Below, in pieces: positions 15,726 through 61,846 of a stretch of 64,000 nucleotides of DNA (position 1 is its first letter; each line of letters opens with the position of its first letter). Made by a program: the position numbers and the translations under genes. Source of the stretch: Bacteroidota bacterium (lineage in GTDB: Bacteria > Bacteroidota > Bacteroidia > JACCXN01); the NCBI GenBank assembly GCA_013696965.1, contig JACCXN010000094.1:1-64000 (forward strand), read 5' to 3'. A model generated the notes under the pieces. The model worked only from the letters and a program-made list of their open reading frames with translations, did not search any database and was not told the origin of the DNA.

Positions 15726-16391
15726 ATGAGTTACTTTAATCCTTCATTTTTGAACTTCTTTAAGGAACTTTCAAAAAATAATACTACCGATTGGTTTAAT
15801 GAAAACCGTAAGACCTATGAAAAAGAAGTTAAAAAACCTTTTTCAGATTTTGTCCAATTAATGATTAATCGAATTCAGGAATATGAACCGGATGTTCAAA
15901 TTAAACCTGCAGAGGCTATAATGAGAATAAACAAAGATATTCGCTTTTCAAAAGACAAAATCCCATACAATGCATCTGTTTCTGCTAATATATCCAGGTT
16001 CGGAAAAAAGGACAAATCATTTCCTGGGTTTTATTTTCAATTATCACCAGAAAAGATAATGATTTATGGAGGCGCTTATGCAATTGAAAAGGAAACATTG
16101 CAACAAATTCGAAATCATATTGGGGATAATCTAAAAGAGTTTTCAGCAGTATACAACGATAAATTATTCAAAGAAAATTACGGAAAAATACAAGGAGAGC
16201 AAAACAAACGAATACCGCCTGAATTCCAATCCATATTAGAAAAGGAGCCCCTTATTGCTAACAAGCAATTTTATTTCAGTGCAAGTTTAAAGCCCCAACT
16301 AATTCTAGATAACTCCTTGCCAGAGGTTTTGATGAAGTATTATGTTGCCGGAATAAAATGCAATACTTTTTTAAGAAAAGCTTTTAATTAA
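15726..16391 (+). CDS. DUF2461 family protein
   Basis: The 221-residue protein has the whole DUF2461 (TIGR02453) pattern: FLNFFKELSKNNTTDWFNEN at the N-terminus, IMRINKDIRFSKDKIPYN in the middle and PGFYFQLSPEKIMIYGGAY after it. The length is the family norm. The family is widespread in Bacteroidota and Actinomycetota, is probably cytoplasmic, and has no established biochemical role. No operon partner is evident; 56 bases separate it from the methyltransferase. Confidence 0.9.
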   Translation: MSYFNPSFLNFFKELSKNNTTDWFNENRKTYEKEVKKPFSDFVQLMINRIQEYEPDVQIKPAEAIMRINKDIRFSKDKIPYNASVSANISRFGKKDKSFPGFYFQLSPEKIMIYGGAYAIEKETLQQIRNHIGDNLKEFSAVYNDKLFKENYGKIQGEQNKRIPPEFQSILEKEPLIANKQFYFSASLKPQLILDNSLPEVLMKYYVAGIKCNTFLRKAFN

Positions 16392-16440: not shown

Positions 16441-16563
16441 GGAGGTTTCTGAAAAAGCTAATCCCGGAAGGGATGATATAATCTAATATTTTTATTCTCT
16501 GGTAACCCATAGAAGGTGAAATTTTGTGCTACTCCTTCGGGCTTAGCATTTTAAGTTGTCTCC
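16441..16563. repeat. Fold-back repeat, diverged copy (second copy at 61053-61189)
   Basis: CTGAAAAAGCTAATCCC at the left and CTTCGGGCTTAGCATTTTAAG at the right are inverted relative to each other and match the arms of the better preserved element at 61053-61189. The centre (ATGATATAATCTAATATTTTTA) also aligns. No flanking duplication is visible here. It is non-coding; 16392-16698 holds only this and the terminator. Confidence 0.7.
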
Positions 16564-19865: not shown

Positions 19866-19933
19866 CACTAGTGTATTTGCATCTAAAGGTAGTGCTTTGA
19901 TTTTTAAGAATTTTATTTGTACATTAAACACTT

Positions 19934-20048
19934 GTAGAAAAATGGTTAAAACCATTTCTACGCTCAATTCAACATCCATCTATAACCCACGGTTTAAAAC
20001 CGTGGGTTATAGAGACGATAATTAGATTACAAACCATTTTAATGGTTT
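19934..20048. repeat. REP-like block A (three hairpins) before the transposase
   Basis: It contains three palindromes: an AATGGTT/AACCATT hairpin extended by flanking GTAGAAA/TTCTAC (19934-19961), ATAACCCACGGTTT/AAACCGTGGGTTAT (19981-20011) and AAACCATT/AATGGTTT (20031-20048). The same order recurs in blocks at 20574 and 20812. This fits the REP/BIME elements processed by REP-associated tyrosine transposases, whose gene starts 16 bases later. Confidence 0.85.
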
Positions 20049-20063
20049 AAAAAACGAACAATT

Positions 20064-20507
20064 ATGCCTCACTCATTCAATAAAATATGGATACATGCCA
20101 TTTGGGCAACCAAAATGAGAGTTCCGATGATACATTTACCCATTGAGCAAAAAATCTATCAATTTATTTCAGAGCAATTACGTGAACAAGGCTGTCCTGT
20201 TAGAATCATTAACGGCATGCCGGATCATATTCATTGTTTATTTCTTTTAAACCCTCAAAAATCCATTGCTGAAGTCATTAAACAAATAAAAGGCAGCAGT
20301 TCTCACTTTGTAAATCAATGCGATTTGATTCCTGAAAAATTTTCCTGGCAAACCGGATATGCCTCTTATTCGGTTTCTGAATCGGTTGTTGAAAAGGTTT
20401 TTCAATACATCAAAAACCAAAAGCAGCACCATCATAAAAAAACCTATGAAAAGGAATACGGTGAATTTTTGAAACTTTATGGGTTAAATAATGAAAGCGC
20501 TATTTAA
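20064..20507 (+). CDS. REP-associated tyrosine transposase (IS200/IS605-like, Y1_Tnp)
   Basis: The 147-residue HUH-type single-strand transposase has the metal-binding motif HIH at 55-57 (GMPDHIHCLF) and the catalytic tyrosine probably at Tyr115 (VFQYIKNQ), with an N-terminal strand FNKIWIHAIWAT typical of the family. It would nick and join single-stranded DNA at REP hairpins; RAYTs usually mobilise or disperse REP sequences instead of themselves. It is intact in length and flanked by its probable substrates on both sides (19934-20048, 20574-21030). The start ATG is confirmed by conservation of the first codons in the downstream truncated copies. Confidence 0.92.
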   Translation: MPHSFNKIWIHAIWATKMRVPMIHLPIEQKIYQFISEQLREQGCPVRIINGMPDHIHCLFLLNPQKSIAEVIKQIKGSSSHFVNQCDLIPEKFSWQTGYASYSVSESVVEKVFQYIKNQKQHHHKKTYEKEYGEFLKLYGLNNESAI

Positions 20508-20573
20508 TTTAGTAAACCCAGAGGTTACACACATCAAATCATAAATCTTTATATTCCTGAGCTATACTAGATT

Positions 20574-20811
20574 GCAGGTTGACACTTGTAAACAAAGGTT
20601 AATTATTTTCTGTGAGGGAAAATGGTTAAAACCATTTCAAAAAGCAAATCAACATCCATAACCCCCGGTTTAAACCGGGGGTTATGGAGACGATAATTAA
20701 GATTACAAACCATTTTAATGGTTTAAAAAAACGAACAATTATGCCTTACACTTCAATAAAATATAAATATATTCCATTTTGGGCAACCAAAAAGAGGAGT
20801 TTCGCTGAATA
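20574..20811. repeat. REP-like block B with truncated transposase start
   Basis: This 238-bp unit is followed in tandem by block C. It has the AATGGTT/AACCATT hairpin, a longer hairpin CCATAACCCCCGG/CCGGGGGTTATGG (20656-20687), the AACCATTTTAATGGTT hairpin and then a copy of the transposase start region (ATG at 20741) that breaks off after about 15 codons and ends in a stop. The C/G pair in the stem replaces an A/T pair of block A, a compensated change. Confidence 0.85.
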
Positions 20812-21030
20812 GCAGGTTTACACTTGTAAACAAAGGTTAATTATTTTCTGTTGGGAAAATGGTTAAAACCATTTCAAAAAGCAAATCAACATCCATAACC
20901 CCCGGTTTAAATCGTGGGTTATGGAGACGATAATTAGATTACAAACCATTTTAATGGTTTAAAAAACGAACAATTATGCCTCACTCATTCAATAAAATAT
21001 GGATACACTCCCTTTGGGCAACCAAAATAT
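20812..21030. repeat. REP-like block C with truncated transposase start
   Basis: This second tandem copy of block B has the same order of hairpins (main stem 20893-20924). Its stem mixes the left arm of B with the right arm of A and so carries a mismatch. From 20976 it encodes MPHSFNKIWIHSLWATK in frame with the real transposase N-terminus, then diverges and stops at 21044, giving a 22-codon stub. Confidence 0.85.
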
Positions 21031-59928: not shown

Positions 59929-60813
59929 TTGGTATTTGCCGCAATAGATATTGGTTCAAATGCAGTTCGATTGCTTTTTTGTAATGTATATGAAAAAGAA
60001 CCAGCTCCAATAATTAAAAAATCATCACTTATTAGAGTTCCCATACGCCTGGGAGAGGATGTTTTTAAAAATGGGCTGATATCTGATGAAAAGGCAGACA
60101 GATTGGTGCTTGCCATGCAGGCGTTTAAAAAACTTATGCTGGTATATAATGTTGTGACTTTTAGGGCATGTGCAACATCAGCGATGCGTGAGGCAGTAAA
60201 TGGGCCACAGGTTGTAAAAAGAATAAAAAAGGAGGCAGAAATAGATATTGAAATTATTAAGGGAGATGTGGAAGCTGAAATAATATTTTCAACCCACCTT
60301 TCTGATAAATTTAACGATAAAAAATCCTATTTGTATATTGACGTTGGAGGAGGAAGCAGTGAAATTACTCTTTTTTCTAAAAACAAAAAAACAGCCTCCC
60401 GGTCTTTTAATATTGGAACAATTCGAATGCTTCAGCAAAAGGATAACAAAGATGAATTCAACCGGATGAAAAAATGGATTAAAGTGCATACCAAAGATAT
60501 CAAAAACACTATTGCCATTGGAACAGGAGGGAATATCAACAAGCTTTCCAAATTGGCAAATAAAAAGGATATAAAAAACATCAGTATTGAAAAACTCATG
60601 GAATTGGATGCATACCTTAACAAATTCACTTACCAGGAAAGGATTGAAACACTTGGATTAAATCCAGACAGGGCTGATGTGATAGTACAAGCAACCGCTA
60701 TTTTTATTGCCATAATGAAAACTGCAGGAACTAAGAAAATATTTATTCCCCAAACTGGGCTTTCTGATGGCATTATAAACTTGCTTTATAAGGATTTTCA
60801 AAAGAAGAAATGA
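59929..60813 (+). CDS. ppx: Exopolyphosphatase / pppGpp phosphatase family
   Basis: The 294-residue Ppx/GppA enzyme has the actin-like ATPase fold: VFAAIDIGSNAVRLLF at the start, LYIDVGGGSSEITLF (about 135-150) and AIGTGGNINKLSK (about 195-208). It is a short, Bacteroidota-type form without the C-terminal HD-like domain of E. coli Ppx. It hydrolyses polyphosphate ends and perhaps pppGpp. The start is TTG; no in-frame ATG is compatible with the conserved N-terminus. Very likely co-transcribed with ppk. Confidence 0.93.
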   Translation: MVFAAIDIGSNAVRLLFCNVYEKEPAPIIKKSSLIRVPIRLGEDVFKNGLISDEKADRLVLAMQAFKKLMLVYNVVTFRACATSAMREAVNGPQVVKRIKKEAEIDIEIIKGDVEAEIIFSTHLSDKFNDKKSYLYIDVGGGSSEITLFSKNKKTASRSFNIGTIRMLQQKDNKDEFNRMKKWIKVHTKDIKNTIAIGTGGNINKLSKLANKKDIKNISIEKLMELDAYLNKFTYQERIETLGLNPDRADVIVQATAIFIAIMKTAGTKKIFIPQTGLSDGIINLLYKDFQKKK

Positions 60814-61052
60814 TTTTTTTAGCAAGATTGTTTTTTAATAATCTTTAATACATTTTTTCCTTGCTAACCCAAATTCCGGGTGCAATAACAGGGGCAAATT
60901 TGTTTGATACCACTAGGGAAGCAATTAAGCGATAATAACAGAACAAGGTTTTTTTTAAAACAAGCCCTAATACATAATAATACGGCTTGTTTCAATTGTT
61001 TCCTTATGGCAACCCACATTAATCAAGAAGAAACTCTCCCTGATTAATTAGA

Positions 61053-61189
61053 GGCCACTGAAAAAGCTAATCCCGAAGGGATGATGCAATTATAGATTAA
61101 TATTTTTAATTCCGTCCAACCCTGGAGGGGTGAAATTATTGATTGTTTATTTTTATGCCACCCCTTCGGGCTTAGCTTTTTAAGTGGCC
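61053..61189. mobile_element. MITE-like fold-back element with 11-bp flanking direct repeat
   Basis: Its ends are inverted repeats 28 bases long with two mismatches (GGCCACTGAAAAAGCTAATC at the left; right end reverse complement GGCCACTTAAAAAGCTAAGC). It is flanked by CTGATTAATTA on both sides (61040-61050 and 61189-61199), which looks like a target-site duplication. The right copy supplies the stop codon of the neighbouring DUF6973 gene. It encodes no protein. A diverged relative is at 16441-16563. The remaining parts of 60814-61192 show no gene. Confidence 0.75.
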
Positions 61190-61192
61190 TGA

Positions 61193-61846
61193 TTAATTAC
61201 CCCCGGCTTTTCGAAAATCTGACCAAGTGTGACATTTTGGATTGTCCCATTTATTTAACAACTCCTTTTCTATAACAACTCCTTTGCAATCAAGATAATT
61301 TCCGGATTTATCCTTCTTTATAATTTTCATTTCCCCTTTTAAAAGGTATTCAATTACTTTAATTTTTAATTCCTCCTCGTTTAGCTGCTTATACTGTTTA
61401 CCTAAGTAAATTCCTACCTTGTTGTTCCAGATATCCATTTCAAAAGAAGCCTTATCAGGTAATGAACCATCTTCTAGTATCCCTTTTTGATATTGAATGT
61501 AATTTGCCTTTTCATGGGCTTCTCCTAATTGGCGTGCCTTTTTAGCAGAAATGGATTGGGCTAAAAGCGCCATCCAATAGGAGTGTTTAAACGCATCTGC
61601 CTGGCCACCCATTAAATCATTATCAATTGGAAATTCAGAAGCAATTGTTTCTACACTCCTTAACGCTTTGTGGGTGATACGGCTGGTTTTTTTGGCAATA
61701 AAGGGATGTTTAATAACCCAGAATTTTTCAGGACTGCTCAACTTAAAATACATACTCATTAAGGACTCCTGGGCCTTAATTACCACGGGAAATAGGAGTA
61801 AGCCAAATAAAAAAACTATTGTTTTCGTTTGTATTGTCAATGTCAA
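61193..61846 (-). CDS. DUF6973 family protein
   Basis: The 217-residue protein has a signal peptide (ending VIKAQ, about 25) and a helical domain with DAFKHSYWMALLAQS (about 85-100), then GEAHEKANY (about 107-116) and MDIWNNKVGIYLG (about 135-148). The invariant His, Asp, His-Glu and Asp-x-x-Asn-Asn are those of DUF6973, thought to be metal-dependent hydrolase-like, but without a demonstrated role. The only plausible starts are TTG. Its last codon and stop lie in the direct repeat flanking the fold-back element. Confidence 0.78.
   Translation of the reverse strand: MTLTIQTKTIVFLFGLLLFPVVIKAQESLMSMYFKLSSPEKFWVIKHPFIAKKTSRITHKALRSVETIASEFPIDNDLMGGQADAFKHSYWMALLAQSISAKKARQLGEAHEKANYIQYQKGILEDGSLPDKASFEMDIWNNKVGIYLGKQYKQLNEEELKIKVIEYLLKGEMKIIKKDKSGNYLDCKGVVIEKELLNKWDNPKCHTWSDFRKAGGN

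Follow-up and report, generated by a model that had tools for sequence, protein, structure and literature searches.

A short fold-back element lies between the convergent Ppx/GppA and DUF6973 genes in the 64,000-nucleotide stretch of Bacteroidota bacterium DNA analysed here (contig JACCXN010000094.1, positions 1 to 64,000; hereafter the window). The initial annotation described it as a non-autonomous mobile element inserted at the 3' end of the DUF6973 gene. The locus raises the question of what moves such an element, and of how its family selects the sites in which it is found.

The window element and its copies

The features of the locus, and of a diverged copy elsewhere in the window, are as follows.

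61041..61050: left target duplication, TGATTAATTA
61051..61191, + strand: short form of MITE-A, 141 bp if its end is GGCCTG (138 bp, to 61188, under an 11-bp reading of the flanking repeat)
61051..61065, + strand: left terminal repeat, GAGGCCACTGAAAAA, identical to the ends of a 1745 bp IS1182-family element
61069..61094, - strand: REP-like unit, TATAATTGCATCATCCCTTCGGGATT, in the MITE-A core
61118..61130, - strand: second REP-like hairpin, CCCCTCCAGGGTT
61161..61173, + strand: third REP-like hairpin, CCCCTTCGGGCTT, at the junction of an internal deletion
61177..61191, - strand: right terminal repeat, with 2 mismatches relative to the left one
61190..61199: right target duplication, TGATTAATTA, holding the DUF6973 stop codon
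61043-61050 and 61192-61199: 8-bp core duplication, ATTAATTA
61193..61846, - strand: DUF6973 gene (PF22322, 73.3 bits), reading frame intact, insertion site at its 3' end
16442..16562, + strand: diverged MITE-A copy with no clean duplication, just downstream of a DUF2461 gene (15726-16391)

The inverted-repeat arms at 61053-61080 (left) and 61162-61189 (right) pair at 26 of 28 positions, as originally claimed, and the flanking repeat CTGATTAATTA is present at 61040-61050 and 61189-61199. The enclosed fold-back element is real, but its length under the 11-bp reading is 138 bp and not the 137 bp first given, and that reading of the repeat probably includes one base of the element. Comparison with five full-length copies suggests that the true MITE-A end is GGCCTC, altered to GGCCTG in the window copy. 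Since this last base has probably changed, the duplication is best read as the 8 bp ATTAATTA or the 10 bp TGATTAATTA. The right repeat does contain the stop codon of the DUF6973 gene (TAA at 61193-61195), and the gene was left intact as described, its reading frame being unbroken. However, the insertion cannot be said to have 'restored' the stop codon, which is wrong wording: the right repeat remains attached to the gene, and its stop was therefore never parted from it.

The element folds strongly, with z scores of -7.2 as DNA and -8.7 as RNA, each matched by 0 of 200 shuffles. When window positions 60800-61400 were scanned against Rfam at E up to 1, the sole matches were two weak ones on the element, one per strand and below the gathering score, to the plant microRNA MIR393; both were dismissed as artefacts of that long hairpin.

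The host assembly of 106 contigs has whole or partial MITE-A copies at 13 places, the diverged copy in the window included. The relationship of that copy, annotated at 16441-16563, proved to be real at 16442-16562 (69% identity, E 2.4e-8). The five complete copies measure 189-193 bp, and both copies in the window are short. Aligned to the complete ones, the copy at 61051-61191 is short by about 50 bp between two CACCCCTTCGG repeats, and the same internal deletion is present in the copy at 16442-16562. As a check, a search for further copies and their flanking duplications had been proposed; dispersed copies were found, and their duplications differ between places (TATTTATTAT at C99, CCTTTTGGG at C91, AAAATTT at C59 and CTTGCACA at C19). 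Duplications of 7-10 bp flank 5 of the 7 complete host MITE copies or composites, and the C4 copy of MITE-A has 6 exact duplicated bases if three extra bases are allowed. Outside the host, the longest match to the window element is 32 bases, matches of 32 and 26 bases occurring in 2 of 39 other genomes; thus, MITE-A could not be traced beyond the host genome.

In a second type, MITE-B (116 bp at C59), IS-end sequence encloses an internal terminator. A composite of MITE-A, CTTTTTGGG and MITE-B is present at both C59, with outer duplication AAAATTT, and C19, with outer duplication CTTGCACA. The occurrence of the same composite between different outer duplications suggests that the pair probably moved as a unit.

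A single copy may account for two of the 13 MITE-A places, on C5 and C38. There (C38:66048 and C5:132; L253, L252) another element, with ends CAATGTCATTAAGTTAAGGA, apparently lies inside a REP-like hairpin of a MITE-A copy and is flanked on its two sides by the near-identical sequences CCCTTCGGG and CCCTCCGGG; two further ends of the CAATGTCATTAAGTTAAGGA type are found at C54 and C66. Close by, at C38:65867-66042, is a hybrid element in which an IS left end, terminator included, is fused to right-hand MITE-A core sequence.

An autonomous IS1182-family partner and the REP-like core

No transposase gene is present in the window MITE-A (138-141 bp). A full-length element with the same ends and a transposase, which the initial annotation had proposed to look for, was found in the host. 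This element of 1745 bp (C9:194416-196160) is bounded by GAGGCCACTGAAAAAG at both ends, and the single ORF of at least 80 aa between them encodes a 510-aa transposase of the IS1182 family (NF033551, 387 bits against a cut-off of 270), with DUF772 and DDE_Tnp_1_6 likewise above cut-off. MITE-A and this IS have the same 15-16 bp ends. The window copy agrees with the IS ends at 15 of 15 bases on the left and 13 of 15 on the right, and the copies at C99, C19 and C59 are exact at both ends. Judging from these shared ends, the 1745 bp element most likely supplies the transposase that mobilises MITE-A in trans. Together, the copies with differing duplications and the transposase-bearing element sharing their ends support the description of the window element as non-autonomous and mobile.

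Further IS left ends lie near contig ends of C6, C30, C46 and C69, and one right end near the start of C89, as might be expected of a collapsed multicopy repeat. At the two readable host IS sites, the duplications measure 8 and 9 bp. The IS copy on C9 was left out as an insertion site; TAAAAACT is common to its right flank and the left flank at C46, which implies that the C9 flanks have been recombined or misassembled. In this only full IS copy, the left and right flanks seem to come from two different insertion sites. A location of the C46/C9 site inside an antiporter gene was considered and dropped, as no open frame of at least 100 aa spans the site on C46.

Hairpins resembling CCCC-TTCG-GGGG make up part of the MITE-A core, four in the full-length form and three in the window copy. 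A pattern for one REP unit, with up to 2 mismatches allowed, matched 19 places in the host, 14 of them within MITE-A copies, and the reversed pattern, used as a control, had zero matches in the host. The remaining 5 matches lie on C41 (3) and C72 (2) near Y1_Tnp matches; each of these Y1_Tnp matches sits at a contig end, and the two could be fragments of a single gene. In the window itself, a Y1_Tnp gene (20079-20420, 93.5 bits) is surrounded, within 19900-20950, by repeated palindromes such as AACCATTTTAATGGTTT and ACCCCCGGTTTAAACCGGGGGT; these are unlike the MITE-A units and perhaps represent a second REP-like system.

The core invites another reading, in which a RAYT (Y1_Tnp), and not a DDE transposase, would have spread the fold-back element as a repeat of the REP/BIME type. 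The alternating GC hairpins are shared with REP/BIME elements, BIMEs have been proposed to be RAYT-mobilised repeats of alternating palindromes (PMC2817692), and the only unit matches outside MITE-A are those near the host Y1_Tnp matches. Unlike REP/BIME, however, MITE-A has IS1182 ends and target duplications: its copies end exactly like a DDE-type IS, most complete host copies or composites bear the 7-10 bp duplications, and no GAGGCCACTGAAAAA end occurs in the examined stretches beside the Y1_Tnp matches of C41 and C72. Spread by a RAYT is therefore regarded as highly improbable. Hardly credible is the view that the two convergent genes simply share the window element as a static, bidirectional terminator. 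It would fit the position between Ppx/GppA and DUF6973 and the strong fold, but not the dispersed copies with differing duplications or the existence of an autonomous partner; a terminator role could be a secondary function of the window element. Mobilisation by the IS1182-family transposase remains the preferred reading. Because they have IS1182 ends, the MITE-A copies are not classed as BIMEs, despite core units resembling those on C41 and C72, and with such ends and target duplications MITE-A looks like a REP cluster caught between IS ends.

Target sites of the transposase family

Of 295 genomes of the class, 3, including the host, have relatives of the transposase, and such relatives also occur at 55 loci in a wider genome-contig set that includes Flavobacterium, Chryseobacterium, Tenacibaculum, Lutibacter, Lysinibacillus, an Oscillospiraceae bin and others. 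For end finding 34 of these loci were used, the other 21 being partial matches or lacking a flank. The ends of the relatives mostly fit GAGGNCACTGAAAAA, and a few differ, such as GAGGTTGCTGAAAAA. The 53 non-redundant sites comprise those of the IS, its relatives, the relatives' MITEs and the host copies. From 40 loci, L108 was removed as a duplicate of the L096 site and L122 as a second hit, in another species, on the L120 terminator; L112 and L127 were removed for short flanks. Among the 6 x 8 split ends of Tenacibaculum, just 2 pairs had at least 7 bp in common, and those were counted. Outside the count are L220 and L236-L249, the truncated or hybrid host copies C29, C81, C37, C5, C56 and C38, and the partnerless IS left ends at C6 and C69.

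A duplication of 7-10 bp is present at 41 of the 53 sites (8 bp at 29, 9 bp at 10, 10 bp at one and 7 bp at one), and contains one mismatch in 4 of the 41 (L101, L137, L215, L221). A site was taken to pass the hairpin test when, in a search within +-3.5 bp, its hairpin score exceeded that of 99% or more of the equal-sized control windows from its own flanks. By this measure, a strong hairpin occurs at the insertion point in 32 of the 41 duplication-bearing sites (binomial p about 3e-56, with sites taken as independent), and 32 of the 41 retain both arms of the stem. The insertion lies at most 1 bp from the dyad axis in 31 of the 32 hairpin sites, or 31 of the 41 with duplications, and a T run of at least 4 follows the stem in 31 of the 32, L133 being the exception. 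At L099, for example, the target is AAAAAAGCCTTAAC-GATATT-GTTAAGGCTTTTTT, with CGATATTG duplicated. With host sites removed, 29 of 34 duplication-bearing sites pass; dyad-centred hairpins are present at most such sites of the relatives. Control windows taken outside long ORFs allowed 27 of the 41 to be judged, 17 of which ranked in the top 2%. A superseded form of the hairpin statistic (+-1.5 bp, 48 sites, shorter flanks) had placed 30 in the top 1.25%. Among the relatives' MITEs with these ends, 6 were read, of which 4 lie in strong hairpins and 2 fail.

At 30 of the 32 related duplication-bearing sites, an open frame of at least 80 codons ends toward the site within 200 bp (stop-to-stop frames, counted with no control set). 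This placement at gene ends agrees with the over-representation of IS1182, among ten such families, between convergent genes (PMC9208149). Copies lacking duplications and always located as terminators downstream of genes had been named in the initial annotation as the pattern that would speak against a mobile element. The elements are indeed often associated with terminators, having inserted into them, yet duplications are still made.

The duplication is absent at the other 12 of the 53 sites, whose flanks were joined assuming an 8-bp overlap; 2 of these 12 pass the hairpin test. In our reading, they are probably recombined, decayed or misassembled copies. The duplication-less IS copies L103, L104, L105, L109, L110, L111 and L134 each have two flanks that resemble half-terminators of different origin, which would fit recombination between copies.

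In the host, 3 of the 9 readable sites (C99, C59 and C91) pass the strict hairpin test and 6 fail, the window copy among them. Neither of the two readable host IS sites passes (C30/C89 with score 17, C46/C9 with score 11). The window insertion site has no recognisable hairpin, its score of 6.5 being equalled or exceeded by 84% of control windows; as a MITE, the window copy is ordinary, shows some decay and lies outside a terminator.

Comparison with an empty site, another proposed check, did not succeed for the window copy in 39 other genomes, but an uninterrupted site was seen for a relative of the autonomous IS. L120 and L122, in two Chryseobacterium genomes, occupy the same terminator with duplications GTTTTTAA and GGTTTTTA; these are 1 bp apart, which suggests that the two insertions were probably independent. 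The gene ahead of this terminator appears regulator-like from its translated end. Among 36 genomes of that group, 34 (counting the query genome) match the joined flanks, many of them over the gene end only. In a third Chryseobacterium genome, the site is contiguous at 89% identity over 416 of 420 query positions, and in another genome of the group it is contiguous at 73% identity over 344 positions. The IS end motif is absent within 600 bp at all 28 matching loci read, both uninterrupted sites included (28 of 30 loci, L257 of the query genome and L258 of the second occupied genome being left out). A terminator-like hairpin with a score of at least 18 occurs within 160 nt past the gene end in 18 of the 28, and a weaker or differently shaped hairpin is visible by eye in several of the remaining 10.

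The elements also carry apparent terminators of their own. Among 27 distinct elements, oriented by transposase, 23 have a strong terminator-like hairpin with a T run no more than 170 bp from the left end, 23 have one equally close to the right end, and 21 have both. The same terminator score was reached by 0 of 162 dinucleotide shuffles of the ends and 0 of 171 internal segments. An internal terminator is also found in MITE-B and in the relatives' MITEs L215, L217 and L219; that of MITE-A is weaker (score 16), and the L221 MITE has none (L216 and L218 were not included in this scoring).

A proposed mode of insertion and its relation to known systems

The explanation in which we have good confidence is that the window element is a MITE of IS1182 ends and a REP-like core, moved in trans by a transposase whose family cuts 8-9 bp around the dyad of a hairpin, with terminators preferred. 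MITE-A would be two IS1182-family ends around REP-like hairpins, with no gene, on which the transposase of the 1745 bp element would act in trans. This transposase and its relatives in Bacteroidota and Bacillota would cut palindromes able to form a hairpin, with an 8-9 bp stagger placed symmetrically about the dyad axis, and would strongly favour the loops of rho-independent terminators that closely follow a gene. As the stagger is centred on the dyad axis, the stem would be kept and the loop region duplicated on both sides of the insert. The IS's own terminators would then replace the split one; since the full IS has a terminator inside each end, a gene whose terminator is split would probably still have termination. 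The host's own element presumably has the same target preference, and confidence in the explanation is tempered by the failure of both readable host IS sites in the hairpin test. A broader proposal, towards which we lean with less assurance, is that for this widespread IS1182 branch the terminator loop is the normal landing site, with the loop duplicated, the hairpin not lost and the element's own terminators swapped in, so that both neighbours keep working. Such loops would serve as a 'safe harbour' for these structure-guided elements and their matching MITEs.

The association with terminators might instead be due to selection only, other insertions having been lost and gene ends being the harmless remainder. 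Selection against gene disruption is general, and nearly all related duplication-bearing sites lie just beyond a gene end. Harmlessness, however, does not explain why insertions are centred so closely on the dyad axis, nor why these hairpins outscore at least 99% of windows in the same flanks, and selection alone is considered very unlikely. Within the favoured explanation of a dyad-centred cut, it may be asked in which form the target is read. That it is palindromic or A-tract/T-tract duplex DNA, and not an extruded hairpin, is given slightly less than an even chance. An A run and a T run of at least 4 are both present at 33 of the 41 duplication-bearing sites, and the duplication is nearly constant at 8-9 bp while the predicted loops span 3-10 nt. 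The idea that duplication length equals loop length was accordingly rejected (r 0.035). On the other hand, the cores have by eye no common sequence beyond symmetry and the A/T runs, and a palindrome without a T run is also a target (L133, GGCGCGA-TGAAGACA-TCGCGCC). Under the dyad-centred explanation, structure and not sequence would be recognised.

Targeting of this kind has a known counterpart. IS1272 / TnSha1, of the IS1182 family in staphylococci, target inverted repeats or stem-loops, several of which are transcription terminators, and no primary-sequence specificity is reported for IS1272 targets in the accessible parts of the two sources (PMC4923244, PMC5678879). The present group resembles IS1272 in combining an IS1182-family transposase with a hairpin target, but differs from it in outcome: with IS1272 the stem-loop is deleted or replaced and the target is not duplicated (PMC4923244, PMC5678879), whereas here the stem is kept and the hairpin centre is duplicated, typically by 8 bp. 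Duplication of the loop is drawn only as hypothetical pathway c in the legend of Fig. 13 of PMC5678879, as far as that source is available. According to the same source, Siguier et al. gave no detailed data on the palindrome targeting that they ascribed to IS1182-family members; the palindromic target is shared with the present group, in which the insertion point is placed to within 1 bp of the dyad axis at most duplication-bearing sites. No report of loop duplication in terminators by IS1182 elements was found in the literature searched, a scope outside which ISfinder, TnPedia and subscription papers lay.

MITE-A is also small, non-autonomous, intergenic and hairpin-forming, like RUP, BOX and SPRITE. 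None of these three, nor other bacterial MITEs, is known to be moved by this IS1182-family IS. RUP, BOX, SPRITE and other bacterial MITEs share those four properties, and the pneumococcal SPRITE is terminator-like; insertion into terminator loops is not described for them in the accessible part of PMC10969869.

These observations make the target choice of IS1182 elements testable, in particular whether a DDE transposase recognises hairpin or cruciform DNA or instead a palindrome in duplex form. The near-constant 8-9 bp duplication on the dyad axis, and the single terminator hit in two species and intact in a relative, offer clean substrates. They also suggest how such elements may spread without breaking genes, and how terminators at gene ends may turn over. 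In annotation, split terminators and fold-back repeats at Bacteroidota gene ends may sometimes be insertions of IS1182-type elements or their MITEs.

A truncated MITE-A without its left end was also observed at C56:58450-58660 (L066). It lies within a terminator-like hairpin and has an exact 11-bp repeat, TGAAAAAGCAG, at both borders; a one-ended insertion is possible.
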